Source of the DNA: a virus | IMG/VR virus record: IMGVR_UViG_3300031227_000028 | Location: 18,857-82,856 of that record | Strand: one strand, 5' to 3' | DNA: 64,000 nt | Shown here: piece by piece, positions 5,433-30,990 of the stretch | How the letters are laid out: each line of letters begins with the position of its first letter | Numbering within the stretch: position 1 is the stretch's first letter | Position numbers and translations under genes: made by a program | The notes under the pieces: model-generated | What the model saw: only the letters and a program-made list of their open reading frames with translations | The model's database searches: none | Told to the model about the DNA's origin: nothing

Positions 5433-5448
5433 GGTATAATGCCTTAAT
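5428..5448 (+). terminator. Hairpin at the 3' end of the helicase gene
   Basis: A 7-bp stem (ATTAAGG / CCTTAAT) with loop tataatg overlaps the stop codon. It is the same element as at 25377-25397 and, inverted, near 2774-2788. Terminator or processing site is inferred from position. Confidence 0.5.
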
Positions 5449-5460
5449 TCTCATATTTGC

Positions 5461-5561
5461 TTTATAAAGGTATATACTCTATCACCTAAAGGTATATAAA
5501 GAAAACCAGCGTAATTATAATTATAATTAGTGATTAATAATTAATGATTGGAGATAAAAAA
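5461..5561 (+). promoter_or_regulatory. Promoter and leader of the small-gene operon
   Basis: Two TATA-like boxes (tttataaagg at 5461 and ggtatataaa at 5491) flank tatactctatcacctaaa. A leader with attataattataatt and gattggagat follows, ahead of the ATG at 5562. The leader matches those at 22870, 25480 and 31070. Confidence 0.55.
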
Positions 5562-5855
5562 ATGGAATTCGATAAAAACCTAAATTGCACAACAACATTA
5601 AAAGAATGTAACAGAGAAAAATTAGATTCAATTGTGTATGTAAAAGAAAGCATTTCAAAAGTTAAAAGTGATTTAAAACTTAATATTGCAGATTTAAAAG
5701 CTCAAATAGTAGAATTAAATAAAATAGCAGATGAAGATATTATTGATTTAAAAGTAGATATTGAAAAATTAAAAATACCTATGACTGAAGATGAATATAA
5801 CAAAACAATAAAAGAACATATAATAATAATAAAAGAAATGCAGATGAGGTACTAA
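5562..5855 (+). CDS. Hypothetical coiled-coil protein
   Basis: The gene encodes 97 residues from the ATG at 5562. An upstream in-frame ATG at 5544 would place the GATTGGAGAT ribosome site inside the gene, so the later start is preferred. The protein is charged, with hydrophobic heptads from about residue 30 to the end. Not recognised; first gene of a run of small, closely packed genes. Confidence 0.65.
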   Translation: MEFDKNLNCTTTLKECNREKLDSIVYVKESISKVKSDLKLNIADLKAQIVELNKIADEDIIDLKVDIEKLKIPMTEDEYNKTIKEHIIIIKEMQMRY

Positions 5856-5857
5856 AA

Positions 5858-6103
5858 ATGTTTATGAAAATATATGGAAATACATATAACAAAGTAAAAC
5901 AGTTAAAACGTGAGATAGAAGTTTTAGAAGGTACTTATAAAGAATATAATGAAGCTTTAAAATCATGTGATATTACTGAAGCTAACTATAAAGGTATTAA
6001 AGCTACTTTCAATAATAGTTTAGAAAATTTTAGAAAACAAATTAATGCAAAGCAAAAAGAAATCAATTATGAATTAAGTAATAGAGTTGTGAATACAAAA
6101 TGA
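5858..6103 (+). CDS. Hypothetical coiled-coil protein
   Basis: The gene encodes 81 residues, basic and helical (KVKQLKREIEVLEGTYKEY). It begins two bases after the upstream stop and overlaps the next gene by ATGA. Not recognised. Confidence 0.6.
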   Translation: MFMKIYGNTYNKVKQLKREIEVLEGTYKEYNEALKSCDITEANYKGIKATFNNSLENFRKQINAKQKEINYELSNRVVNTK

Positions 6104-11441: not shown

Positions 11442-12074
11442 ATGGAAGAAGAAAAAAATTTATTTGATGAAATGACTAATATACCTGAACAAAAACCAAA
11501 TACAAACAACGATGTATCTGTAGCAGATGCTGTTCAAGAATTAGAAAAAGAAGAGGTAGTGGTTGATTCTGTTTTTGATTATAATAAATTACCAAGCACT
11601 ACAGGTTCTTCATATAATAGAGTTAATTTAGATAATGAAGAAGTTGTAATTAGTAAAGCAGAAATTAAATTACCACATCCTAATTCTGATTGGGTTGAAG
11701 GAAGAACTAATAAAAACATACACTATAAAGGATATCAATTTATTGTAAGTTATGATACTGAAAACGATGACCACGAAAATTATAGCGGTATGAGAGGATT
11801 CCAAAAAACAAACGGTAGTTTAGGTGAACCAACAATTTATACAAAAAAATTAAGCACACAAGCTAGTAAATTATTTGGTAAATTTAAAGAATATATTATA
11901 AGAACTGTTAAAGTTGAAGAAAAAGAAATGACTTCTGATATTTTTGAAGCTTCTTATGGTTTAAAACAATTTATGGCTTTCTTAAATAGTAAACCAAAAG
12001 CTTTACTTAGAGTAATAGAAGTAGATTATGATGGTAAAATTACTGAGAAAAACATGATAAGTAAATTTCTTTAA
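11442..12074 (+). CDS. Hypothetical replication-region protein
   Basis: The gene encodes 210 residues with an acidic, low-complexity N-terminal 50 and a more structured C-terminal 130. Not recognised. Its place between primase and nuclease-helicase, and its acidic disordered tail, would suit a DNA-binding accessory protein such as an SSB analogue, but no OB-fold signature could be confirmed. A terminator-like hairpin follows. Confidence 0.55.
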   Translation: MEEEKNLFDEMTNIPEQKPNTNNDVSVADAVQELEKEEVVVDSVFDYNKLPSTTGSSYNRVNLDNEEVVISKAEIKLPHPNSDWVEGRTNKNIHYKGYQFIVSYDTENDDHENYSGMRGFQKTNGSLGEPTIYTKKLSTQASKLFGKFKEYIIRTVKVEEKEMTSDIFEASYGLKQFMAFLNSKPKALLRVIEVDYDGKITEKNMISKFL

Positions 12075-14346: not shown

Positions 14347-15051
14347 ATGAAAATAAAAAAACAAATTATTAGAGATTTTTTAAAAGAAAGTGCATTATCT
14401 GGTGATAGTTCACTTACTGAAGTAAAATTAGATTTCAATGAACAAGCAATGTGCTTAACTGCAATAACTGGTGGTAATGCTGTAATGGTAAAAGCTCAAT
14501 TAATTTCTGGTGCATTTGAAGAATATGAAGCAATTGGAAAAATTGGAATAATTAATTATTCTGAATTGACAAAAATTATTGATGCATTAAATGATAATAT
14601 TGAAATTAATAAAGAAGGAAATTTATTAGTATTTAAAGGTGGGCGAAAAATTGAAGTACCATTAGCTGATGAATCATTAATTAAAGATATTTCAAAAATT
14701 CCTAGTTTAGAATATGATTATACATTTGCTTTGAATAAATCAGTATTTGACGCTATTAATAAAAATATTGTATTCTCAATGAATAAAAATGATAGTAAAA
14801 CTATTCAATTTACTGGTGAAAATAAAATATTAAATATTAAATATGGTACTAAATATAAATTTGAAGATAGTATTGCAGTTAATGAAATTAATGCTAATAA
14901 AATTGATGTTAAATTTGGAGAGCCTTTATTAAATGCTATTACAAATTTAAGTGGTGATTTAACAGTTCAAATGAAAAGCGAATTTCCAATAACTATTATG
15001 AAAAAAACTGAAATGTATGCAATTAAGATTATTGTAGCACCAAAAGTTTAA
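14347..15051 (+). CDS. DNA sliding clamp (PCNA-like)
   Basis: The gene encodes 234 residues, close to the usual PCNA length of about 245. Two similar beta-rich halves are visible, with MCLTAITGGNAVMVKAQL early on, an interdomain region near 110-125, and the ending KKTEMYAIKIIVAPKV, like the C-terminal strand of archaeal PCNA. It would form a ring tethering polymerase and other clients to DNA. It is followed by the clamp-loader ATPase. Proteins with clamp-binding-like tails are encoded nearby, at 16526, 18431, 19602 and 22192. Confidence 0.75.
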   Translation: MKIKKQIIRDFLKESALSGDSSLTEVKLDFNEQAMCLTAITGGNAVMVKAQLISGAFEEYEAIGKIGIINYSELTKIIDALNDNIEINKEGNLLVFKGGRKIEVPLADESLIKDISKIPSLEYDYTFALNKSVFDAINKNIVFSMNKNDSKTIQFTGENKILNIKYGTKYKFEDSIAVNEINANKIDVKFGEPLLNAITNLSGDLTVQMKSEFPITIMKKTEMYAIKIIVAPKV

Positions 15052-15099: not shown

Positions 15100-16026
15100 A
15101 TGAATATTGACGATTTAAAAAACATTGCATGGATGATTAAATATAGACCAAAAACATTAGATAATGTTGTTGGAAAAGAAGCTAAACTATTGAAAAAATA
15201 TGTTGATAGTAATAATTTACAACATTTTTTACTATCTTCTAGAACACCAGGTACAGGAAAAACAACTTGTGCAAAAGCTATTATTAATGATACTGGAGCA
15301 GATTACATTGAAATAAATAGTAGTGATGAAAGAGGAATAGATGTTATTAGAGATAAAATTAAATTATTTGTTAGTACGATGAGTTCTAAACCTGGTTTAA
15401 AAAAAATTGTATTTTTAGATGAAATGGATTCTATGACTAAAACAGCTCAAGATGCACTTCGTAATATGATGGAGAAATTTATGACTAATGCTATCTTTAT
15501 TCTAACTTGTAATTATATTGAAAAGGTTATTGAACCAATCAAAAATCGTTGTGAAGTTATAGTTTTTGATAGTCCTGATAAAGCAGAGATTAGAAAATAT
15601 TTATTGAATATCATAGATGCTGAAAGCGTTAAATATACTAGTGATGGATTAAATAAATTAATTGATATGAATTATCCAAGTATAAGAGAATCTGTTAATA
15701 CTTTACAAAAGTTTAAAACTATGGATATTGAATTGAATCCTATTAATTTAAAAAAAAATAATGAGAAATTTGATATTTTATGGACAGATATTAAAAGTGG
15801 TAAGGTTTTAAATGTTAGAAAAGAAATCTGTGAAAATAATTATAACCCTGAATTATTATTAAAACATTTTTGGGCAAAAACATATACAGATGAAAAATTA
15901 ACTATAAAACAAAAAATTAAATTAGTATCTGTATTAGCAGATGTTGATTATAAAATGAGTATTGGTGCATCAAAAAATATTCAAATAGATAATATGTTAT
16001 TTAAAATAGTAGGTGCTTTAATATAA
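15100..16026 (+). CDS. Clamp-loader ATPase (RFC small subunit-like)
   Basis: The gene encodes 308 residues. It has the RFC box near the start (WMIKYRPKTLDNVVGKE), Walker A TPGTGKTT at 49-56, Walker B FLDEMD (D107, E108), sensor 1 TCNY, and NRCEV in place of the SRC arginine-finger motif. It would open and load the viral PCNA at primed ends. A strong GAGGGAG ribosome site precedes the ATG. Confidence 0.9.
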   Translation: MNIDDLKNIAWMIKYRPKTLDNVVGKEAKLLKKYVDSNNLQHFLLSSRTPGTGKTTCAKAIINDTGADYIEINSSDERGIDVIRDKIKLFVSTMSSKPGLKKIVFLDEMDSMTKTAQDALRNMMEKFMTNAIFILTCNYIEKVIEPIKNRCEVIVFDSPDKAEIRKYLLNIIDAESVKYTSDGLNKLIDMNYPSIRESVNTLQKFKTMDIELNPINLKKNNEKFDILWTDIKSGKVLNVRKEICENNYNPELLLKHFWAKTYTDEKLTIKQKIKLVSVLADVDYKMSIGASKNIQIDNMLFKIVGALI

Positions 16027-16031
16027 TTAAA

Positions 16032-16526
16032 ATGGATTTATTCAAAACTTTAAATAAAATATATACTGCAAGAGATACTGATTGGGTTAAAGATATTGAT
16101 AGTAATGTGTCAAATGTACCTATTAATATTATTTTATCATATAATATTAAACTTAGTAATGTAGTAGCTTTTTTAGATAAATATACATTTAGATTAGATG
16201 TTAAGAATTTTTGTATATTAGCTTGGGCAATTATACACCCTAAATATAATTCAATGCCTTTTAGTAAAAAAATAAAAGCTAATGAAAAAGAAAATAATAA
16301 ATATCAATTTTTATTAGATAAAATACAAACTAGAATGGAAATATCAAACAATGATTGGGTTGATTCTAAGAATTATTATATTGAAGACATTGAAAGAAGA
16401 ATAACAGATTATTTAACTTTATTTGGTTGTACTAAAAAAGAATGGAAATCAATTGGAATTGATTTTGAAGAATCAAAAAAAATTAATATTGTAGATATAA
16501 AAAAAGGATTAGATAAATGGTTTTAA
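16032..16526 (+). CDS. Putative clamp-loader accessory subunit (T4 gp62-like), clamp-binding C-terminus
   Basis: The gene encodes 164 residues and starts five bases after the RFC-like gene. Its size, helical make-up and position right after the loader ATPase resemble the T4 gp44/gp62 pair. It ends in KKGLDKWF, a clamp-binding-like tail matching the last six residues (GLDKWF) of DNA polymerase B in this window. The clamp contact is inferred from that shared ending; homology to gp62 is a guess from context and size. Confidence 0.5.
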   Translation: MDLFKTLNKIYTARDTDWVKDIDSNVSNVPINIILSYNIKLSNVVAFLDKYTFRLDVKNFCILAWAIIHPKYNSMPFSKKIKANEKENNKYQFLLDKIQTRMEISNNDWVDSKNYYIEDIERRITDYLTLFGCTKKEWKSIGIDFEESKKINIVDIKKGLDKWF

Positions 16527-16627: not shown

Positions 16628-17278
16628 ATGATAAATGAAATAATAATAACTTACAAATTTTTTGGTAAGAGAGGCTTATTTGTATTCACAGGTATAGCAA
16701 TAATCTTAGCAAATATACAAGTTTTGAAAACAGTACAATTATTTGGAATGGTTGCAACATTAGGTAATGTTATATATGGATGTTCTTTTTTGATAACAGA
16801 TATATTATCTGAAAATCATGGGAAGAAAGATGCTAAGACAGCTGTTATAATAGGATTGTCTGCAGCAATAATATCAACTGTTATAATGTATATATGTACT
16901 TTATTCGTTCCACATTCAAGTGATTTCGCTAGTGGGGCTTTATCAACAATTTTTAGTGTTATGCCAAGAATAATGATTGCATCTTTAATAGCATATACAA
17001 TATCTAACTTTAATGATGTACATATATTCCATAAAATAAAAGCTAAAACAGGAGATAAACATCTTTGGATTAGAAATATTGGTTCAACATTTTCAAGTCA
17101 ATTATTAGATACAGTAATTTTTAGTGTAATAGCTTTCTGGGGAATGTTTAGTAGAGATATATTTATTCAAATAATGTTAACTACATATATTATGAAAATT
17201 GTAACAGCAGCTTTAGATACACCTTTCCTTTATCTTGCTAAATGGATGAAGAAAAATGGTCATGTGAGTGAGGAATAA
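16628..17278 (+). CDS. Queuosine precursor transporter (QPTR / YhhQ family)
   Basis: The gene encodes 216 residues with about six hydrophobic segments. Family hallmarks are GNVIYGCSFLITDILSENHG (TDI..E.G) near residues 47-66 and the late IRNIGSTFSSQLLDTVIF motif. YhhQ proteins import preQ0/preQ1-type 7-deazaguanines. It opens the operon that continues with two TGT/DpdA-like enzymes starting two bases after its stop, so its probable job is to supply the modified base from the environment or host. No biosynthetic gene (FolE, QueD, QueE, QueC) is seen in the window. Confidence 0.9.
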   Translation: MINEIIITYKFFGKRGLFVFTGIAIILANIQVLKTVQLFGMVATLGNVIYGCSFLITDILSENHGKKDAKTAVIIGLSAAIISTVIMYICTLFVPHSSDFASGALSTIFSVMPRIMIASLIAYTISNFNDVHIFHKIKAKTGDKHLWIRNIGSTFSSQLLDTVIFSVIAFWGMFSRDIFIQIMLTTYIMKIVTAALDTPFLYLAKWMKKNGHVSEE

Positions 17279-17279
17279 A

Positions 17280-18431
17280 ATGGATAGAAATTTTTTTGAA
17301 GAGAATAAATTAGTATATTTGCCAGCAACCCTTCCATCTGCTGAGTTATGTATAAATAATGATGAACCAACTGCAAAACAACCTCACTTTTGGAATAAAG
17401 AAACATCAATATGGTACTATCCAAATTTATTAATTAGTGCATATCATGCAGATAAAATTGAAGATATTAGAAAATTAATGGGAATAGATAAAGATGTAAA
17501 AATTCTTTATGATAGTGGAGGTTACCAAATGGTAACCTTAGGAGGAAATATTAATCCTAAAGATTTAATAGAATTACAATTAAAAAATTCTAATGCTGGC
17601 CTTATATTAGATAATCCTCCTTTTAAAATAGGATTAGGAAATTCACAGTTTGGTGAATCAATGAATGAAGATGAAATATCAATATGTCTTAATAAAACAA
17701 AAGAGAATGCTAAAATTGCAATGGCTAATAATATAGGACCAAATAAAATTAGATTATATGGTGTAGTGCAAGGAGAATCATGGGAACAAATTAATAGATG
17801 GTATGATTCAATGCATGAATTAGAAGAAGAATATGGAAAATTTGATGCCTGGGCAATGTCACCAAAACCATCAACAATAGCATTATATGGAATTTTATTA
17901 TTAGAAAGAAAAATTAAAACCCCAATACATTTTTTACAGGCTACAAGTAGAGAAGCAATATCCACTACCGCATATATTAGAAAATTATCAAAAAATTTGA
18001 TAACTATTGATAGTTCAAATTTTTCATCTGGTACAAGATATGGAAGAATAATAAATTATGAGCATTTAGGTATATTTGATATAGGCGAAGGAAAAAGAGA
18101 AAAAAATAAAAAAGGTTGGTTTTGTGATTGTCCTATTTGTAGAGAAAGAAAAATTGATATTGAAAATTTATCAACAACAGATTTAAAATATATAAATATT
18201 CATAATTTATATCAAATAGTTAAAATTGTAAAAGTTGCAGATTGGTTAGTTGATTATAGTGAAGTAATGTTTTTTAATTGGATTAAGAAATTTAAATCAT
18301 CATGCACTGGTGCAATTAAAATGTTACAATTTTATGATAAATATGGATTAGAAAGAACTAAATTAAATTACTCAGATATATTCACAGCAAATGATAATAT
18401 AGTAAATCAAAAAGGTTTATTTGATTTTTAA
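17280..18431 (+). CDS. TGT/DpdA-like 7-deazaguanine transglycosylase 1 with C-terminal PIP-box-like tail
   Basis: The gene encodes 383 residues; the start at 17280 follows GTGAGTGAGGAATAAA. Features of the tRNA-guanine transglycosylase fold are DSGGYQ (D78) as substrate-recognition acid, GVVQG at 161-165, the likely nucleophile D244 in TIDSSNFSSGTRYGR, and a zinc site C282, C284, C287, H308. No PUA domain is present. The chain ends NQKGLFDF: Q377, L380 and F383 fit the Q-x-x-L-x-x-F PCNA-binding pattern. Together with the QPTR gene upstream this suggests a DNA-modifying DpdA-type enzyme. A tRNA target cannot be excluded from sequence. Confidence 0.8.
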   Translation: MDRNFFEENKLVYLPATLPSAELCINNDEPTAKQPHFWNKETSIWYYPNLLISAYHADKIEDIRKLMGIDKDVKILYDSGGYQMVTLGGNINPKDLIELQLKNSNAGLILDNPPFKIGLGNSQFGESMNEDEISICLNKTKENAKIAMANNIGPNKIRLYGVVQGESWEQINRWYDSMHELEEEYGKFDAWAMSPKPSTIALYGILLLERKIKTPIHFLQATSREAISTTAYIRKLSKNLITIDSSNFSSGTRYGRIINYEHLGIFDIGEGKREKNKKGWFCDCPICRERKIDIENLSTTDLKYINIHNLYQIVKIVKVADWLVDYSEVMFFNWIKKFKSSCTGAIKMLQFYDKYGLERTKLNYSDIFTANDNIVNQKGLFDF

Positions 18432-18456
18432 ATTATATAGATTAGGAGAAAATAAA

Positions 18457-19602
18457 ATGAAAAGAACATTTTTTGAAAATAATAAATTAGTTTTTATCCC
18501 TGCAATTTTACCTAATAAAGATCTTTTTGGTAAAGAAACAGATAAATATTCTTTTTTTTCTGATAAGTCTTTATATTTTTATCCTAATGTTTTAATTAGT
18601 GCATATCACGGGAAACATTTAGATATTAGGAAAGAATTAGAATGTAATGATAATGTTATGATTTTAGGTGATTCAGGTGGATTTCAAGCAGTAACTTTAG
18701 GTGGCGATATAAACGCTAAAGAAGTTATTAAATGGCAAATGAATAATTGTAATGCTGGTTTAATACTTGATAAGCCTCCATATAAATTTGGTGGAACAGC
18801 GCAATTTGCAGGTACACCATCTAAAGAATTTTTTAATGAATGTTTAGAAAAAACAAAACAAAATGCTTTAATAGCTCTTGAACATAATAAAGGCGAAAAG
18901 AAAATTAGATTATATGGAGTAATTCAAGGCGAAACATGGGAACAAATGAAACAATGGTATGAAACAATATCATCAATTCAAACAAATGAGAAAAAATTTG
19001 ATGCATGGGCATTATCACCAAAACCATCAAATGATGTTTTTAAAATTGCAATGCTTGGTATTTTATGTTTAGAAAAAAAAATAGATACACCATTGCATAT
19101 ACTTCAAATTTCAAATCGTCCTGGAATAATAGTTGCTGCTTTAATAAGATTTTGTATTCAACAAACAGTAACTATAGATAGTTCTTCTCCTTCAAAAGCA
19201 TCACGTTTTGGGGAAATATATAATCCATATACATTTTTAGCAGAAATTAAAACCGGGCAAAGAAGACCAAAAGAAAAAATGAATGGATGGATGTGTGATT
19301 GCCCAATATGTCAAGCAACTAATATATCTTTTAATGATGTTGAAAATAAAAATTATGAAAATATTTTGGATTTACATAATTTATATCAAATAGTGCGTTT
19401 TGTAAAATATATGGATTGGGTAGTACAAGATAAAGAAATATTAATGAAAATGGTAAAAACTGTTTCAATTAATGCTTATAATGCAATTGAAATGATTTAT
19501 TATTATAAAGAATATGGATTAGAAAGAACTAAATTAAAATATCCAAATGTATTTGAATCAAATAATGATGCATCAAATCAAAAAGGATTATTTGAATTTT
19601 AA
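18457..19602 (+). CDS. TGT/DpdA-like 7-deazaguanine transglycosylase 2 with C-terminal PIP-box-like tail
   Basis: The gene encodes 381 residues from the ATG at 18457 behind TTAGGAGAAAATAAA; an earlier start would lie inside the previous gene. It is a full-length paralogue of the preceding enzyme: DSGGFQ (D72), GVIQG at 154-158, nucleophile D241 in TIDSSSPSKASRFG, zinc ligands C280, C282, C285, H307, and the shared YGLERTKL before the tail. It ends NQKGLFEF, again PIP-box-like. Both copies keep the catalytic residues, so this is not an obvious active/inactive pair; a heterodimer or two different substrates or sites are possible. Confidence 0.8.
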   Translation: MKRTFFENNKLVFIPAILPNKDLFGKETDKYSFFSDKSLYFYPNVLISAYHGKHLDIRKELECNDNVMILGDSGGFQAVTLGGDINAKEVIKWQMNNCNAGLILDKPPYKFGGTAQFAGTPSKEFFNECLEKTKQNALIALEHNKGEKKIRLYGVIQGETWEQMKQWYETISSIQTNEKKFDAWALSPKPSNDVFKIAMLGILCLEKKIDTPLHILQISNRPGIIVAALIRFCIQQTVTIDSSSPSKASRFGEIYNPYTFLAEIKTGQRRPKEKMNGWMCDCPICQATNISFNDVENKNYENILDLHNLYQIVRFVKYMDWVVQDKEILMKMVKTVSINAYNAIEMIYYYKEYGLERTKLKYPNVFESNNDASNQKGLFEF

Positions 19603-19611
19603 GGTAATAAA

Positions 19612-20085
19612 ATGGCTGTGAAACAAGAAACATATGATAAATGGATAGCTAAATATGGTCCAAATGCAAGAATTGGTTTAGATATTATAGGTAAATGTAA
19701 TTTATATCCTAAAGAATTAGGGAGAATATTTTTACCTACAATAACAGAGGCAATTAAAAAAAATAATTGTTATATAATTGATGATAGGAATTGGGTATTT
19801 TTTAATTATAATAAAAAATTAAATAAAATGAAACTTCAATATATATTATCAATGGACCATAAAGGAACTATTTTATTAAAACATCTTGAATCAATTTGTG
19901 CAGAAAGACATATTCCTATAATTTATTTAACTGTTGTTGCAGGAATGCCAGCAGTTGATTGGTATTATAAAAAAGGTTTTATAAAAGTTAAAGAAAGACA
20001 TTCAAGGAAGGGAACTTTATTGTTTGATGTTGAGAAGAAGTTTTTTAAAATAGGTTTAGAGAAATGGTATAAAAATGAAATATAA
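19612..20085 (+). CDS. GNAT-fold acyltransferase-like protein
   Basis: The gene encodes 157 residues. The C-terminal half has a GNAT-like pattern: CAERHIPIIYLTVVAGMPAV then WYYKKGFIKVKERHSRKGT, that is, a strand, a helix and the typical Y..GF.. ending. It lies nine bases after the second TGT-like gene and overlaps the start of the polymerase gene. GNAT-type enzymes include phage Mom, which modifies DNA bases, so a role in further decorating the modified base is possible but unproven. The C-terminus has IGLEKWY, loosely like the GLDKWF clamp-binding tails nearby. Confidence 0.55.
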   Translation: MAVKQETYDKWIAKYGPNARIGLDIIGKCNLYPKELGRIFLPTITEAIKKNNCYIIDDRNWVFFNYNKKLNKMKLQYILSMDHKGTILLKHLESICAERHIPIIYLTVVAGMPAVDWYYKKGFIKVKERHSRKGTLLFDVEKKFFKIGLEKWYKNEI

Positions 20086-22192
20086 ATCGCAAATAGACAA
20101 AATGATTAGTAATTGTTTGGTATATGATATAGAAACAAGCGCTAGTTATCCTGATGGTAAACCAATAAACATTAAAACAGATTTTAAAAATTATATTAAA
20201 TATGCAATAGTTAAATGGGTAGGTTTTTATTCTTATAAATATAATAAATATTATGAATATAATGCTATTATACAACTTGATGAAATTGACCAAATGTTTA
20301 AAGACCATAGACATATTATTGGTATAAATAATATAGAATTTGATACTCCTATTTGTATGAATAATAATATTATAAAACAATATCAACATAAACAAATAGA
20401 TTTACAGGTTATTCTTGGAAATAATTTATTACAAGGGCATAAAAATAGAGCAACATTTATGGGTGTAAATTTAAAAAAAATTATTATTAATGATAAAGAA
20501 TATGGACCTAATACTTTAATGAGTTTAGCTTATCATTTTAATTTACCAGTATTAAAAGGAGATATAGATTATAATATATTTTTTAAAAATCATTGGGATG
20601 AAAAAGAAACTAAAAATATTATTAAATATTTACATGGTGATATAGAAGTAACTAAATTATTATTTGATAAAGTAATTAATTTCTGGACTATATTTACAGA
20701 TTGGTTATATATTGAAGATGTAGAAAAATGGGCTTGGTTAAAAAGTAGTATTGCCAGTTTAACTTATCTTGCAGCATGTAAAGTTAAAAATGTTTTACCA
20801 ACATATGGAAGTATAGGAGAAACTGAAGATATGGGTGGAAGAGCAGTAATGCCTATTAAAGATGAAATATATAATGTTCATTATTTAGATGAAGCATCTA
20901 AATATCCACATATATTTGCTCAGTTTAATTTATTTAGTGAAGTAGATATATCAAGTTATACTAATGAACAAATTGAAAAAGCAATTGCAAATAATATAAT
21001 ATGGCATGGCAATGATAAATTTAAAGTTAAAGGATATTATTATATAAAAGAACAATCTATATTAGCTAAAGATGTATTAAATAAATTAAAAACAAGAATA
21101 GCTGTTAAGAAAATACTTAAAAAAGATAAAAATGGTAAATATATTAATATTGATGAACATAATTATATGAAAATAGAAATTGACCCATTGTTAAAAGATT
21201 TTATATTTGATAAACAATTATCTGATTATATTATAAATTCATTAAATGGATTACAATATGCTATTAAAATCTTTTTAAATTCATTATATGGTGCAGTTAG
21301 AAGTGGAATATTTGAACAAATACATACTCCTAATGCTGGATATGATTGTTGTTGGATTGGTCAACAAATTCATGAAAAAGTTGAAAAAGAATTTAAAGAC
21401 CGTGGATATGACACAGTAGGTGGATTTACAGATTCCTGGTTTATAGAAAAAAAAGAAGGAGATACTAGAGAATTAATGATTAAATATTGTAAAACTATAA
21501 TGAACAAATTAAAAGAATCATTTATTTTTCCTGCAGATACACATATAATTGATTATGAATGTTTTATGGATTATTTATTATATAATAAAGATAAGAAAAA
21601 TGAATATAAAAAAAATAATTATTGTTTCATATCTAATGGTAAAGTTAAAGTTGTAGGATTTCCTATAAAAAAAAGTAATTCATCTAAACTAGGAAATATA
21701 ATACTTAATAAATATATTATTCTAGAAGGATTAAAAAGAAATAATTTAAAATTTAAAAAGAAATATTTTGATAATATAATTGCAGAAGAATTAAAAAATG
21801 ATATTACTTTATCTGCTGTTGTTTTTAAATGTAATCCATCAATAACTTATAAAAAAATAAATCAATTACAAGCACAAGTAAGTCGAGCATATTTTGATGG
21901 TTTAGGTGGAGAAATAGCTATAATTAAAAATAAAAAATTTGGTAAAGTAGGAAAAACAAATAAATATTGTACTATAAAAGAAGCAATAGAAAATAATATA
22001 CAAGTTGAAGATTTAGATTTAACTAAATTATTTAATGAACTTAATCCATTTATTAGAAAAGAAAAAGATATGGATTTATTTAGTTTTGTTGGTGGTGATG
22101 ATAATTTATTTGATGAAAAAGTTGATGAAAAAGTTGATGAAAAAGTTGATGAAAAAGTTGAAACAAAAACGGGGCTAGATAAATGGTTTTGA
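20075..22192 (+). CDS. Family B DNA polymerase with proofreading exonuclease and PIP-like tail
   Basis: The gene encodes 705 residues, short for the family. Exonuclease motifs: DIE at 18-20, NNIEFD ending D90, and YLHGD (Y185, D189). Polymerase motifs: A, LDEASKYPHI (D272); the KTRIAVKK fingers helix near 339-346; B, KIFLNSLYG at 398-406; C, GGFTDSWF with D453. The usual first Asp of DTDS is replaced by F451; the second, metal-binding Asp is kept. A flexible linker of repeated VDEK (about 676-694) leads to the terminal GLDKWF, a clamp-binding tail. It should be the viral replicative polymerase. Confidence 0.9.
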   Translation: MKYKSQIDKMISNCLVYDIETSASYPDGKPINIKTDFKNYIKYAIVKWVGFYSYKYNKYYEYNAIIQLDEIDQMFKDHRHIIGINNIEFDTPICMNNNIIKQYQHKQIDLQVILGNNLLQGHKNRATFMGVNLKKIIINDKEYGPNTLMSLAYHFNLPVLKGDIDYNIFFKNHWDEKETKNIIKYLHGDIEVTKLLFDKVINFWTIFTDWLYIEDVEKWAWLKSSIASLTYLAACKVKNVLPTYGSIGETEDMGGRAVMPIKDEIYNVHYLDEASKYPHIFAQFNLFSEVDISSYTNEQIEKAIANNIIWHGNDKFKVKGYYYIKEQSILAKDVLNKLKTRIAVKKILKKDKNGKYINIDEHNYMKIEIDPLLKDFIFDKQLSDYIINSLNGLQYAIKIFLNSLYGAVRSGIFEQIHTPNAGYDCCWIGQQIHEKVEKEFKDRGYDTVGGFTDSWFIEKKEGDTRELMIKYCKTIMNKLKESFIFPADTHIIDYECFMDYLLYNKDKKNEYKKNNYCFISNGKVKVVGFPIKKSNSSKLGNIILNKYIILEGLKRNNLKFKKKYFDNIIAEELKNDITLSAVVFKCNPSITYKKINQLQAQVSRAYFDGLGGEIAIIKNKKFGKVGKTNKYCTIKEAIENNIQVEDLDLTKLFNELNPFIRKEKDMDLFSFVGGDDNLFDEKVDEKVDEKVDEKVETKTGLDKWF
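22108..22160 (+). repeat. In-frame 12-bp tandem repeat encoding VDEK
   Basis: The unit gatgaaaaagtt is repeated four to five times within the 3' end of the polymerase gene. It encodes a charged, flexible linker between the thumb and the terminal clamp-binding motif. Repeat number probably varies between related viruses. Confidence 0.8.
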
Positions 22193-27619: not shown

Positions 27620-27642
27620 TTGAAATATATTAAAATTTATAG

Positions 27643-27716
27643 AAGTGTAGGCTAGTCAGGTCAAAGTCACGCGGCTCATGACCGTGAGAACGTTGGTTCA
27701 AATCCGACCACTTCTA
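27643..27716 (+). tRNA. tRNA-Met (CAT)
   Basis: Acceptor AGAAGTG/CACTTCT with A73, D-arm from TAGGCT, anticodon stem CGCGG/CCGTG with loop CTCATGA, and T-arm GTTGG TTCAAAT CCGAC. CCA is not encoded. Initiator or elongator status, or a C34-modified Ile, cannot be decided from sequence alone. Confidence 0.93.
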
Positions 27717-27721
27717 TTTTG

Positions 27722-27739
27722 TTTAAATGTACATTTAAA
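27722..27739. repeat. 18-bp perfect palindrome between tRNAs
   Basis: TTTAAATGTACATTTAAA lies between the Met and Asn tRNA genes. It may be a processing or termination hairpin. Confidence 0.5.
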
Positions 27740-27752
27740 TAAACGTGATAAA

Positions 27753-27813
27753 AATAATTACCTACCGTTTAGAAACGAAAGGAGGAGTGATTCCCTCGTT
27801 GCAAGGAATTATT
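27753..27813 (+). ncRNA. Possible structured RNA between tRNA-Met and tRNA-Asn
   Basis: AATAATTaCC pairs with GGAATTATT to close a domain holding two hairpins (CGTTTAGAAACG and GAGG...CCTC). It lacks a T-loop (TTCRANY) and a tRNA-like anticodon arm, so it was not called a tRNA. Function unknown. Confidence 0.4.
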
Positions 27814-27826
27814 GTTTATTTTTATT

Positions 27827-27897
27827 GCCGATGTAGTATAATGGTATTATACCTGGCTGTTGACCAGATGATAGGGGTTCAATTCCCTTCGTCGGCG
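27827..27897 (+). tRNA. tRNA-Asn (GTT)
   Basis: Acceptor GCCGATG/CGTCGGC, G73, anticodon loop CTGTTGA in stem CTGG/CCAG, and T-loop TTCAATT. CCA not encoded. Confidence 0.93.
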
Positions 27898-27903
27898 TTT
27901 TAT

Positions 27904-28024
27904 ACGTGTGTGGCTGATTGGTAAAAGCGCTGGACTTAGAATGAAAATTCGTCTACAAGATGTTTTTACATAAGTTATCCAGTTTCCTAAGTGGATGTTG
28001 TGTGTTCAATTCATACCACACGTA
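27904..28024 (+). tRNA. tRNA-Leu (TAG) with intron
   Basis: Acceptor ACGTGTG/CACACGT, A73. Anticodon stem CTGGA/TCCAG is split by an insert after CTTAGA, so an intron of about 36 bases (near 27941-27976) lies one base 3' of the anticodon, the canonical archaeal site. A long variable arm and T-arm GTGTG TTCAATT CATAC support Leu. It needs the host splicing endonuclease. Confidence 0.88.
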
Positions 28025-28031
28025 TTTTTAT

Positions 28032-28116
28032 GCTACGATGGCTCAATATGGCACAGCAACAGATTGCTAATCTGTGAGACAATAACTCTTTTCGGTTCAA
28101 ATCCGAATCGTAGCGT
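28032..28116 (+). tRNA. tRNA-Ser (GCT)
   Basis: Acceptor GCTACGA/TCGTAGC, G73, anticodon loop TGCTAAT in stem CAGAT/ATCTG, long class II variable arm, T-arm TTCGG TTCAAAT CCGAA. Reads AGY codons. Confidence 0.92.
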
Positions 28117-28213
28117 TGAAGGAGAAGCTAAAAATGGTCTTATTGGAAGCAAGAGGCAATGCTTGACGAAGAGAAACTTATAACTGTAGCGGGTTATACA
28201 TTCATTATTTTTT
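28117..28213 (+). ncRNA. Unassigned spacer with two hairpins
   Basis: Ninety-seven bases between the two serine tRNAs hold AAGCA/TGCTT and TATAAC/GTTATA hairpins. No T-loop and no convincing ORF were seen. It could be a structured RNA, a degenerate tRNA or a spacer. Confidence 0.3.
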
Positions 28214-28294
28214 GCTAACAAAGCGAATGGTAAGCGTGCCGTCTTGAAAACGGTTGGTCCTTGCGGCTCGTCAGTTCGAATCTGGCTGTTAGCG
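28214..28294 (+). tRNA. tRNA-Ser (TGA)
   Basis: Acceptor GCTAACA/TGTTAGC, G73, anticodon loop CTTGAAA in stem CCGT/ACGG, class II variable arm, T-arm GTCAG TTCGAAT CTGGC. Reads TCN codons. Confidence 0.92.
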
Positions 28295-28323
28295 TTATTA
28301 AAATAAAAAAAATATAAATTATT

Positions 28324-28397
28324 GGGCGAATAGTTAAATCTGGTATAACGTCCCGCTTGCAACGGGGAGGCTTCGGGTTCAAATCCCGATTTGTCCA
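28324..28397 (+). tRNA. tRNA-Ala (TGC)
   Basis: Acceptor GGGCGAA/TTTGTCC includes the G3-U70 pair that marks alanine tRNAs; A73; anticodon loop CTTGCAA in CCCG/CGGG. CCA not encoded. Confidence 0.94.
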
Positions 28398-28406
28398 TAT
28401 ATTAAA

Positions 28407-28607
28407 ATGAGTTATGATAAAAATCATACAAAAGACGATTGTGATAAATGTCTTGAAAGGGTTGGAAAAGAAAATTTAACACCTATTAAGTTTTTATATC
28501 TTGATAGGAATGATTTAATGCATCCTGATTATTATCATAACGCAACTAAAGCACAAAAAGATTACAAATTATATTATGTTTGTAAAAATTGTTTAAAAAA
28601 TTATTAA
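28407..28607 (+). CDS. Small zinc-ribbon protein embedded in the tRNA array
   Basis: The gene encodes 66 residues with CDKC near residue 12 and CKNC near residue 59, giving a C-x2-C...C-x2-C zinc site. It begins nine bases after tRNA-Ala and ends one base before tRNA-Thr. Not recognised; such ribbons occur in many phage proteins. Confidence 0.65.
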   Translation: MSYDKNHTKDDCDKCLERVGKENLTPIKFLYLDRNDLMHPDYYHNATKAQKDYKLYYVCKNCLKNY

Positions 28608-28608
28608 T

Positions 28609-28682
28609 GCACGTGTGGCACAGTGGTCTACTGCGTCTGCCTTGTAAGCAGAATTACCCCAGTTCAAATCTGGGTACGTGCT
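28609..28682 (+). tRNA. tRNA-Thr (TGT)
   Basis: Acceptor GCACGTG/TACGTGC, anticodon loop CTTGTAA in TCTGC/GCAGA, T-loop TTCAAAT. Confidence 0.93.
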
Positions 28683-28688
28683 TTTTAT

Positions 28689-28760
28689 GCATCATTGGGC
28701 AAGTGGTAAGTCGTCTGTCTGCAAAACAGAAGAACCCCGGTTCAATTCCGGGATGATGCT
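28689..28760 (+). tRNA. tRNA-Cys (GCA)
   Basis: Acceptor GCATCAT/ATGATGC with the cysteine-specific U73; anticodon loop CTGCAAA in TCTGT/ACAGA; T-loop TTCAATT. Confidence 0.94.
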
Positions 28761-28761
28761 T

Positions 28762-29046
28762 ATGGTAAAATATAAAAAAAAATATGGGCATGAATATCCA
28801 ACATTAACAGTTCCAATGAAATCACTTCAAGAAGAAAATTTATTTATTAATCCTTATTGGAATGAATGGAATACTCAAAAAGATAGTTTAAGAGTTATAT
28901 GTGATAATAAAAAAATAGTTAAACAAAATAAAAATAGAATACATAAATTTTCAGTTTGGGATATTAGAGAAAAAGGAATACAAGAAAAAAATAAAAAAAA
29001 ATTAATTATAAGAAAGAAAAGAAAATTATTAAATAATATTATTTAA
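28762..29046 (+). CDS. Small basic hypothetical protein in the tRNA array
   Basis: The gene encodes 94 residues from the ATG at 28762, one base after tRNA-Cys ends; a longer frame reading back through the tRNA is not credible. The C-terminus is strongly basic (KNKKKLIIRKKRKLL), suggesting nucleic-acid binding. Not recognised. Confidence 0.55.
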   Translation: MVKYKKKYGHEYPTLTVPMKSLQEENLFINPYWNEWNTQKDSLRVICDNKKIVKQNKNRIHKFSVWDIREKGIQEKNKKKLIIRKKRKLLNNII

Positions 29047-29064
29047 TACAAACATTTATATATT
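29036..29064 (+). promoter_or_regulatory. Promoter of the second tRNA segment
   Basis: The sequence aatattatttaatacaaacatttatatatt repeats the promoter at 27455-27484 almost exactly. Confidence 0.65.
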
Positions 29065-29165
29065 AGATATGGTTTTATATAATTATAATAAATAATCTTA
29101 ATATTAATTTATTAAGAAATATTAAATAACTAGATAATTATAGGTGTTATCCCAATCATATTAAA

Positions 29166-29241
29166 ATGAACATACAAGAATGGAGACAGGACGGGGAAAG
29201 AGGCTTTGACATAGTGTTTAAGCCTATCTATCGTTAGTCCT
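29166..29241 (+). ncRNA. Structured leader or 23-codon ORF upstream of tRNA-Val
   Basis: AGGAC (29188) pairs with GTCCT (29241) around a perfect inner stem AGGCTT/AAGCCT (29201-29225), a nested RNA fold. A 23-codon ORF (MNIQEWRQDGERGFDIVFKP...) spans 29166-29237, so this could instead be a short peptide gene. The rest of 29047-29318 shows only the promoter and AT-rich sequence. Confidence 0.35.
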
Positions 29242-29318
29242 TCCATGGTTCATATCAATTTCTAAATAAATAAAAAAGAACATTGGCCATGTGCCATGGA
29301 ATTCTAAAAAAAATATAC

Positions 29319-29389
29319 AGTCGTATAGTTTAATGGTAAAATTATCCGTTTACACCGGATGGCTATGAGTTCAATTCTCATTGCGACTA
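29319..29389 (+). tRNA. tRNA-Val (TAC)
   Basis: Acceptor AGTCGTA/TGCGACT, A73, anticodon loop TTTACAC in ATCCG/CGGAT, T-arm ATGAG TTCAATT CTCAT. Confidence 0.93.
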
Positions 29390-29403
29390 TAATAAACCTT
29401 TAT

Positions 29404-29476
29404 GCTCTAATGGTCTAGTGGACAATGACATCTGGCTTTCGACCAGAAGACCTGAGTTCAATTCTCGGTTGGGGTA
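29404..29476 (+). tRNA. tRNA-Glu (TTC)
   Basis: Acceptor GCTCTAA/TTGGGGT contains several G-U pairs; A73. Anticodon loop CTTTCGA in TCTGG/CCAGA; T-arm CTGAG TTCAATT CTCGG. The D-arm is almost identical to that of tRNA-Gln at 29999. Confidence 0.88.
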
Positions 29477-29482
29477 CTTTAC

Positions 29483-29557
29483 TGGGTGGTGGTCTAGTTT
29501 GGCTAAGACTCTCGACTTGGACTCGAGAAACCGGGGGTTCAAATCCTCCCCATCCAA
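29483..29557 (+). tRNA. tRNA-Pro (TGG)
   Basis: Acceptor TGGGTGG/CCATCCA, A73, anticodon loop CTTGGAC in CTCGA/TCGAG, T-loop TTCAAAT. Confidence 0.92.
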
Positions 29558-29567
29558 TATTTATTTT

Positions 29568-29639
29568 GCCTGTGTAGTGTAATGGCTATCACATGAGACT
29601 GTCTATCTCAAAATTTGGGTTCAATTCCCAGCATGGGCG
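29568..29639 (+). tRNA. tRNA-Asp (GTC)
   Basis: Acceptor GCCTGTG/CATGGGC, G73, anticodon loop CTGTCTA in TGAGA/TCTCA, T-loop TTCAATT. Confidence 0.93.
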
Positions 29640-29643
29640 TTAT

Positions 29644-29718
29644 GGAAGTATAGCTTAATCTGGTTAAAGCACCGGTCTTATATACCGTTGAATCTGGGTT
29701 CAAATCCCAGTATTTCCA
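29644..29718 (+). tRNA. tRNA-Ile (TAT)
   Basis: Acceptor GGAAGTA/TATTTCC, A73, D-stem GCTT/AAGC, anticodon loop CTTATAT with a four-pair stem CGGT/ACCG, T-arm CTGGG TTCAAAT CCCAG. A TAT anticodon is unusual: most archaea read AUA with a modified CAT tRNA. Confidence 0.88.
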
Positions 29719-29723
29719 TTTAT

Positions 29724-29796
29724 GGACGTATGGCTAAGTGGTTAAGGCAGTCGACTGATATTCGAAAGAACACCGGTTCAAATCCGGTTATGTCCA
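29724..29796 (+). tRNA. tRNA-Ile (GAT)
   Basis: Acceptor GGACGTA/TATGTCC, A73, anticodon loop CTGATAT, T-arm ACCGG TTCAAAT CCGGT. Confidence 0.91.
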
Positions 29797-29802
29797 TTTT
29801 AT

Positions 29803-29912
29803 GCACCCATAGTCTAAACTGGAAGGGCTCTTGGCTTCGATACAATTGTATGGCTAGTAAGACGCTTTTTTGAAGATACCAAGGTATCCGGGTTCAAATC
29901 CCGGTGGGTGCT
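29803..29912 (+). tRNA. tRNA-Arg (TCG) with intron
   Basis: Acceptor GCACCCA/TGGGTGC. Anticodon stem CTTGG/CCAAG is split after CTTCGA, giving an intron of about 37 bases (near 29841-29877) directly 3' of position 37. T-arm TTCAAAT. It decodes CGN, not the AGA codon that is common in this window. Confidence 0.87.
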
Positions 29913-29917
29913 TTTAT

Positions 29918-29991
29918 GTGAATGTAGCAAAACGGTTTAATGCACTCGACTTTTAATCGAGAGACTGAGGGTTCAAATCCCTTCATTCACA
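29918..29991 (+). tRNA. tRNA-Lys (TTT)
   Basis: Acceptor GTGAATG/CATTCAC, A73, anticodon loop CTTTTAA in CTCGA/TCGAG, T-loop TTCAAAT. Confidence 0.93.
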
Positions 29992-29998
29992 TTTTTAT

Positions 29999-30071
29999 AG
30001 GGTAGTGGTCTAGTGGACAATGACATCTGACTTTGGATCAGAAAACGGCAGTTCAATTCTGCCCTACCCCA
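29999..30071 (+). tRNA. tRNA-Gln (TTG)
   Basis: Acceptor AGGGTAG/CTACCCC with an A1-C72 mismatch, A73; anticodon loop CTTTGGA in TCTGA/TCAGA; T-arm GGCAG TTCAATT CTGCC. The D-arm is shared with tRNA-Glu, suggesting duplication and anticodon change. Confidence 0.88.
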
Positions 30072-30076
30072 TAATT

Positions 30077-30148
30077 GCTTGCATAGCATAACGGTTAATG
30101 CTTCAGGTTGTGGTCCTGATAATCTGGGTTCAATTCCCAGTGTAAGCT
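30077..30148 (+). tRNA. tRNA-His (GTG)
   Basis: Acceptor GCTTGCA/TGTAAGC, anticodon loop TTGTGGT in TCAGG/CCTGA, T-loop TTCAATT. The base before position 1 is T, so the G-1 needed by histidine tRNAs is not encoded and would have to be added. Confidence 0.91.
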
Positions 30149-30155
30149 TTTTAAT

Positions 30156-30228
30156 GGACATATAGCATAATGGGAGTGCGCTGAGCTGAAGCCTCAGTAT
30201 TGTTGGAGTTCGACTCTCCATATGTCCA
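30156..30228 (+). tRNA. tRNA-Phe (GAA)
   Basis: Acceptor GGACATA/TATGTCC, A73, D-stem GCAT/GTGC, anticodon loop CTGAAGC in CTGAG/CTCAG, T-arm TGGAG TTCGACT CTCCA. Confidence 0.92.
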
Positions 30229-30238
30229 TCATATTAAA

Positions 30239-30745
30239 ATGGCATACGAACTATATAAAATAAAAAAGGATAAAGAAAATTATTTTAAAGATTGGTCTAG
30301 TGATAAACTTTTAACTTTAACTGACGAAATAAAAGAAGTAGTCTATAAAAAGTATTTAGTTAAATGTGATGTTTTTAAAAGAGATAATTATAGTTGTCAA
30401 AATATTAATTGTAAAAATTTAAATAGTCCATTAACAATGCATCATGTTAAATTTCAAAAAAATGGTGGAGAACATAAAATAAAAAATTGTGTAACTTTAT
30501 GTGAACCATGTCACGTTTTATTTCATAGAGCTAGAACAGCAATTACTTATAAAAATAATAAATATCTTCCTATTCATATTAGAGGTAAAACTTTTATGTT
30601 AGATAGACAAGATAAAATTAACTGGAAAGAAATTAAAAGTCATATGAGAAAACTTAGAAAAACTTTAAGAAAAGAAAGAATTTATTTAAGTTGGAAAGAT
30701 ATGAATTTATTAATGAAATTTTTAGAATTAAATTTTGAAGATTAG
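30239..30745 (+). CDS. HNH endonuclease in the tRNA array
   Basis: The gene encodes 168 residues from the ATG at 30239. The HNH core is RDNYSCQNINCKN, then LTMHHVKF and NCVTLCEPCHVLFH: the histidine pair, the asparagine and the zinc-binding cysteines are all present. The C-terminus is basic and helical. Placed between tRNA-Phe and tRNA-Gly, it may be a free-standing homing-type nuclease that has spread into the array, or a recombination or packaging nuclease. Confidence 0.82.
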   Translation: MAYELYKIKKDKENYFKDWSSDKLLTLTDEIKEVVYKKYLVKCDVFKRDNYSCQNINCKNLNSPLTMHHVKFQKNGGEHKIKNCVTLCEPCHVLFHRARTAITYKNNKYLPIHIRGKTFMLDRQDKINWKEIKSHMRKLRKTLRKERIYLSWKDMNLLMKFLELNFED

Positions 30746-30750
30746 TTTAT

Positions 30751-30825
30751 GTATCTGTAGTGTAGTTTGGTCTATCATCTGGGACTTCCAATTCTGGGAC
30801 GTGGGTTCGAATCCCACCGGGTACA
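30751..30825 (+). tRNA. tRNA-Gly (TCC)
   Basis: Acceptor GTATCTG/CGGGTAC, A73, anticodon loop CTTCCAA with a wobble-rich stem, T-arm GTGGG TTCGAAT CCCAC. Confidence 0.88.
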
Positions 30826-30832
30826 TTTTTAA

Positions 30833-30903
30833 CCGCTCGAGATATTTGGTAATCATACGAGGCTGTAACCCTTGTTCTATCGGTTCAATTCCGGTCGGGT
30901 GGA
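30833..30903 (+). tRNA. tRNA-Tyr (GTA)
   Basis: Acceptor CCGCTCG/CGGGTGG with the C1-G72 pair typical of archaeal tyrosine tRNAs; A73; anticodon loop CTGTAAC in CGAGG/CCTTG; T-loop TTCAATT. Confidence 0.92.
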
Positions 30904-30911
30904 TTTTTAAT

Positions 30912-30984
30912 GGGCTGTTGGTGAAATCTGGTATCATATTTGGCTCCAGACCAAATGTTATGGGTTCAAATCCCATGCAACCCA
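30912..30984 (+). tRNA. tRNA-Trp (CCA)
   Basis: Acceptor GGGCTGT/GCAACCC with one C-A mismatch, A73; anticodon loop CTCCAGA in TTTGG/CCAAA; T-arm ATGGG TTCAAAT CCCAT. Last tRNA of the array. Confidence 0.9.
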
Positions 30985-30990
30985 TATATA

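Follow-up and report, generated by a model that had tools for sequence, protein, structure and literature searches.

The DNA of phage 9g carries dG+, and the modification in phage CAjan requires DpdA (PMC6884629, Hutinet et al. 2019); a clamp is never mentioned in the main text of this founding DpdA paper. Among haloarchaeal tailed viruses, DpdA has been described in HRTV-29 and a YhhQ transporter in HCTV-1 and HCTV-16 (PMC8651126), the passages on these viruses making no mention of tails or clamps. The alpha-glucosyltransferase of phage T4 co-purifies with the clamp gp45 (PMC13216743; Sommer et al. 2004 cited there), and its clamp binding is not the main determinant of modification level in vivo (PMC13216743). 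In the open-access literature two papers contain both DpdA and sliding clamp, and both appear unrelated, judging by title and abstract; no mechanism for how DpdA finds viral DNA, or for the time of its action, was found in the literature searched. The PCNA clients that carry a PIP box, a Q-x-x-h-x-x-a(-a) peptide at the protein end, include the archaeal RFC large subunit, PolB and eukaryotic DNMT1, the last being a DNA-modifying enzyme; to our knowledge no base-exchange enzyme is among them. The beta-clamp and PIP consensus motifs applied here are those of general knowledge.

The DNA analysed (the window) is a stretch of 64,000 nucleotides, bases 18857-82856 of the 82,856-base virus record IMGVR_UViG_3300031227_000028, which contains the terminase, portal/head morphogenesis and major head protein genes of a tailed virus. 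The host is probably an archaeon, because the virus has a PCNA-type clamp and a tRNA-Tyr (71 bases) of class I with C1-G72, a type characteristic of archaea and eukaryotes. On the same two features a bacterial host for the window virus, hinted at by the 'Bacilli' label of the bin that holds the relative L138 (see below), was discounted. Twenty tRNA genes were located at 27640-30985, including a tRNA-Ile with anticodon UAU and four tRNAs with GUN anticodons (Asn, Asp, His and Tyr).

A replication array on the + strand of the window runs in the order clamp, loader ATPase, small loader-like protein, YhhQ-type transporter, two putative DNA-guanine transglycosylases (DpdA-a and DpdA-b), GNAT acetyltransferase and DNA polymerase. 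The PCNA-like clamp reported at 14347-15051 by the first-pass annotation was confirmed: the 234 aa product matched solved PCNAs in phmmer searches (E 4.2e-5) with an almost full-length alignment (residues 22-234), and its terminal APKV corresponds to APKI in PCNA. It is followed by a clamp-loader ATPase of the RFC small subunit/gp44 type (15100-16026; phrog_168 4e-66, Pfam Rep_fac_C 8e-7) and by a small protein (16032-16526) in the position of a second, gp62/RFC-L-like loader subunit, an assignment that rests only on position and on the tail KKGLDKWF, no informative family match having been obtained from Pfam or phrog. The product of 16628-17278 belongs to the YhhQ/Vut_1 type (Pfam Vut_1 5.8e-50), and its function as a transporter of queuosine precursors (preQ0/preQ1) was assigned after PMC5372724. 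The GNAT gene (19612-20085), a conserved neighbour of dpdA, was identified from a Pfam match to Acetyltransf_10 (2e-4), its L138 ortholog and Foldseek, where the best matches listed were GNATs; the model was weak (pLDDT 52), and the fold class alone was used. The family B DNA polymerase (20075-22192) shares 34% identity with the PF00136 polymerase encoded by L138.

Both TGT/DpdA-like genes lie at the place and on the strand first annotated, and the enzyme class assigned to them is supported by fold and by active-site residues. DpdA-a (17280-18431, 383 aa) and DpdA-b (18457-19602, 381 aa, start codon ATG at 18457) are encoded by adjacent genes, are 49% identical and have the same catalytic and zinc residues. 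Matches to Pfam TGT (2e-5 for DpdA-b) fell below the curated cut-off, at 21.4 and 24.2 bits against 26.3. An AlphaFold model of DpdA-a, built with 27 sequences (pLDDT 81, pTM 0.85), gave a sole significant match in the PDB, the DNA preQ0 insertase DpdA (7ui4, E 2.2e-7), at 12% identity across the structural alignment; the next match from the TGT family, and the best to a tRNA enzyme, was mouse QTRT1/2 (E 1.6e-3). Searching the PDB with a profile of the DpdA family retrieved the archaeosine TGT 1iq8 (4.8e-9) and, more weakly, bacterial TGTs (~1e-4). D78 (within DSGG[FY]Q), D111, D244 (TIDSS) and the CDCPIC motif with His308 are kept in DpdA-a, DpdA-b and the relatives L138 and L016; D78, D111, H217 and D244 are invariant across the 27 sequences, the cysteines are not. 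Beyond the catalytic domain the model contains helices and a tail only, and the C-terminal PUA-type RNA-binding extension of archaeal TGT is absent (383 and 381 aa in total vs 582 aa in 1iq8). Both proteins are predicted to be DpdA-type enzymes that replace guanine in DNA with a 7-deazaguanine, the modified base being inferred.

DpdA-a ends in NQKGLFDF (18405-18428) and DpdA-b in NQKGLFEF (19576-19599), tails that had been read as fitting the PIP pattern. In the model of DpdA-a the last nine residues (375-383) are disordered, with pLDDT < 50. Under a strict definition, Q-x-x-[ILMV]-x-x-[FYW] no more than three residues from the C-terminus, the motif was restricted to DpdA-a and DpdA-b among the 118 genes of the virus (counting both the window and the remaining 18.9 kb of the record). 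This is more than chance, the background being 6 in 1750 genes from other viral loci, with the L016 DpdA among the six; the first reading of the tails stands. As the two proteins are paralogues their tails are not independent, but the L138 ortholog, at 50% identity, also has the motif. Further clients with related tails had been proposed, and these too were recovered in the form of a second tail type, GLDKW[FY], common to the polymerase (KTGLDKWF, 22166-22189), the 16032-16526 protein (KKGLDKWF) and the GNAT, where the stretch KIGLEKWY lies close to the C-terminus (20047-20070) and its KIGLE is kept in L138. The 16032-16526 protein and the GNAT were the best matches in the genome to the polymerase tail, the GNAT ranking third. 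Binding of clamps by polymerase tails is assumed here on the basis of work on T4 and RB69. The polymerase C-terminus additionally contains an EKVD repeat and two clamp-like stretches, MDLFSF and NLFDE, ahead of the final GLDKWF; the L138 polymerase, which ends EMSLDDWGL, has in their place the one short end SLDDWGL. Elsewhere in the array, a 210-aa protein of unknown family (11442-12074) begins MEEEKNLFDEM and ends KNMISKFL, and is possibly another clamp client.

Scans of viral contigs with a single protein (DpdA-a or the clamp) found no relatives, and a search by DNA motif pattern matched just the same virus and apparent chance matches. A second contig, IMGVR_UViG_3300035698_012866 (L005/L014), encodes DpdA-b and the genes after it with identical proteins and looks like the same virus assembled again. 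The genome collection yielded one relative, L138 (SKJH01000119.1), a 9.9-kb contig of 26% GC from a 'Bacilli' bin, with genes for QueD, QueE, a phosphoribosyltransferase, FolE, QueF, DpdA, GNAT, QueC, a short product and PolB. The DpdA of this contig shares 50% identity with DpdA-b and has the C-terminus QNSLFDF after a diverged linker, Q-x-x-L-F-D-F being kept, and its GNAT (5393-5860), 43% identical to that of the window, adjoins DpdA and ends FKIGLEQYEI. Because L138 shares them, the tails, the GNAT neighbour and the tie to 7-deazaguanine chemistry are, as judged by sequence comparison, conserved between the two viruses. QueF converts preQ0 to preQ1 by reduction, and preQ1 is therefore the likely base used in L138. 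QueD, QueE, FolE, QueF and QueC were not found in the record of the window virus, which has the transporter instead; the association with preQ0/preQ1 supply genes nevertheless holds, the YhhQ-type transporter adjoining DpdA-a and synthesis genes surrounding the L138 ortholog. In the next relative, L016, QueD, FolE and QueC are found beside a DpdA that ends QANLFRYK. A search of the L138 bin for PCNA gave no match, which carries no weight either way.

Other features of these two contigs were also recorded. QueE of L138 (435-2213) is split by an intein/Hint-like insert directly after the radical-SAM cysteine motif. L016 contains a 387-aa ORF (973-2133) with a match to HNH/homing endonucleases first and QueD at its end, adjoining FolE, QueC and a DNA methyltransferase. 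The contig L138 is virus-like, carries genes for preQ1 and PolB, and sits in a bin labelled Bacilli; either the label is a binning error or the host of the clade is in need of checking.

The tail is not confined to the window virus, similar C-termini being recognisable in several DpdA clades that include the published 9g type. In 9g itself the gene order is dpdA, beta-clamp, polymerase, and DpdA ends LQDLFDE. The clamp gene lies 0-2 genes after dpdA in phages MiCath, SLUR25, HD01, CA8, RHEph04, VpKK5 and Dp-1, and the DpdA ends across these seven phages are RVQELF, RVMELF, RAQELF, MIQGLF, EQRLF, QPGLF and QRRLF. An alignment of eight 9g-type DpdAs has the L and F of the tail as invariant columns. 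Across contig loci of the 9g family, LF or LW was found within two residues of the end in 70 of 77 DpdAs vs 1 of 908 other genes. In 55 of the 77 loci the gene immediately after dpdA encodes the phage beta-clamp; after dereplication at 80%, L[FWY] was retained within two residues of the end in 37 of 39 DpdAs. Within the dereplicated set, positions -14 to -10 show high column entropy, which drops at Q-4 and E-3, L-2 and F-1 having been fixed partly by the selection of rows. Profile comparison identifies the clamp of the family as a beta sliding clamp (1.8e-5). In most members the 9g-type xQELF does not have the first Gln of the classical QLxLF.

Alignment-based scans of viral contigs yielded about 120 distant DpdA loci, many with a PolB gene (Pfam) within a few kb. 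In a T4-like group a clamp gene (phrog_223) directly follows dpdA and is itself followed by gp44 and gp62; a profile of this T4-type clamp had no match in the PDB, and its identity rests on phrog_223 and gene order. Searches of phage records for clamps using PF09116, PF00705 and PF00712 were uninformative, since PF00712 missed annotated clamps. The ends of DpdA and polymerase, respectively, were QFNKFFKF and MNKFFSFG in L037, IETFFDFN and IESFFEF in L034, QFNALFEFE and TFTSLFDFE in L091, AFNAMFDV and AFSAMFG in L077, and NNNDLFGW and NNTDLFDW in Vibrio phage 2.275.O (L010). When the DpdA tail was ranked against the other genes of its locus, with PolB lineages defined as clusters at 50% identity, it matched the polymerase tail better than any other gene in 7 of 11 lineages, where 1.2 would be expected (p ~2e-5), and not in the remaining 4; with two gene-poor loci excluded it was best in 5 of 9 (p ~3e-4). 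The type of tail differs with the clamp: loci with phage beta-clamps have xQELF, and those with T4-type/PolB replisomes have FxxFFxF or FxxLFxF. Raw counts overstate independence because family members are related, and the independent units are three clamp classes and 11 PolB lineages. In Pseudomonas phage PA5oct (L148 6701-10626) an unannotated relative of DpdA (..FNSLFDVD..) was observed; a polymerase fragment with the end HFDSLFGW precedes it by two genes, and a 7-carboxy-7-deazaguanine synthase is encoded in the vicinity.

Conservation of the tail in homologues, proposed as a check by the first-pass annotation, held for the L138 ortholog and failed for others: no tail was present in DpdA2 of the T4-type phage nt-1, in the DpdAs of 7-11 and six actinophages, or in those of NCTB, GR7B/GR11A and L066. 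A universal tail was rejected on the nt-1 DpdA2, 7-11 and actinophage proteins. Phage 7-11 modifies its DNA, according to PMC8651126.

Taken together, these data suggest that the DpdA-type enzymes replace guanine in viral DNA with a 7-deazaguanine while their tails dock on the PCNA-type clamp, so that modification follows replication. We give this reading a probability of roughly 0.75. It rests on observed sequences, fold, catalytic residues, tails and their conservation, gene order and the matching of DpdA with polymerase tails; that the tail binds the clamp, which base is made and that the enzyme acts at the fork are inferred. The precursor base would be imported by the viral YhhQ-type transporter or supplied by the host, L138 encoding its own pathway up to preQ1. 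The flexible PIP-type tail Q-K-G-L-F-D/E-F of each DpdA would dock on the viral clamp, clamps left behind the polymerase would hold DpdA on freshly made viral DNA, and guanine would be exchanged there after the fork has passed. The tether proposed from the window alone gains support from the kept L138 tail, the matches to polymerase tails and the adjoining clamp genes.

Action on host or viral tRNA, with 7-deazaguanine inserted there and the tails put to some other use, is what the TGT superfamily, the weak Pfam TGT match, the 4.8e-9 profile match to archaeosine TGT and the 20 viral tRNAs, those for Asn, Asp, His and Tyr included, might lead one to expect. It is nonetheless improbable, given a fold far nearer to the DNA-inserting DpdA (E 2e-7) than to the best tRNA enzyme (1.6e-3), a length of ~383 aa, too short to include the C-terminal extension present in archaeal TGT (1iq8 chain 582 aa), and genes that sit within a replication array and encode clamp-type tails. 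Fold and gene context favour a DNA target, as originally supposed.

Should DNA indeed be the substrate, the tails could still serve a role other than clamp binding, such as mutual binding, contact with another replisome protein or folding, their likeness to the motif being incidental. There are no binding data for the clamp, the GLFDF of the DpdAs differs from the GLDKW[FY] of polymerase, loader and GNAT, and several DpdAs, that of 7-11 among them, work untailed. Against this, each of the three clamp classes has its own type of DpdA tail, dpdA adjoins the clamp gene in two of the three, and DpdA and polymerase tails agree lineage by lineage; a non-clamp role is considered unlikely, if marginally easier to entertain than a tRNA target. 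Chance likeness among short hydrophobic C-termini is hardly credible: the motifs are short and the counts come from related paralogues and family members, yet the ends are conserved behind variable linkers in separate clades and occur at rates far above background.

If clamp-directed base exchange on DNA is accepted, base exchange becomes a post-replicative step of the replisome, which would explain both the frequent adjacency of dpdA and clamp genes and the steering of an enzyme from a tRNA-modifying superfamily to DNA. The tail would also serve as a marker by which further DNA-modifying enzymes directed to the clamp could be recognised from sequence. Related phages have DpdA tags suited to the different clamps that they encode, so it is probable that DNA modification just behind the replication fork is common to many viruses, with binding, base and timing again inferred. 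It is a guess that the GNAT, which is conserved and has a tail of its own, might acylate preQ1 in DNA at its aminomethyl group. A broader scheme, in which the clamp is a platform where the two DpdAs insert preQ1 and a clamp-tethered GNAT acylates the aminomethyl group to give N-acyl-preQ1 at the fork, with tethering recurring across beta-, T4- and PCNA-type clades, is speculative and on present evidence doubtful.

Compared with described systems, the window enzymes resemble the DpdA of 9g and CAjan (PMC6884629), a member of the TGT superfamily that is required for 7-deazaguanine in phage DNA and is encoded beside preQ0 genes; the position of its gene beside a phage beta-clamp and its QxLF C-terminal end, both identified here, extend the likeness. 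It differs in belonging to another clade and in being paired with another clamp. The bacterial DNA preQ0 insertase DpdA (7ui4) differs in being part of a cellular restriction-modification cluster. The alpha-glucosyltransferase of T4 is unrelated in fold and chemistry, adding glucose to hydroxymethylcytosine without base exchange, but as a phage DNA-modifying enzyme that binds the sliding clamp of its own phage it represents the closest mechanistic precedent.
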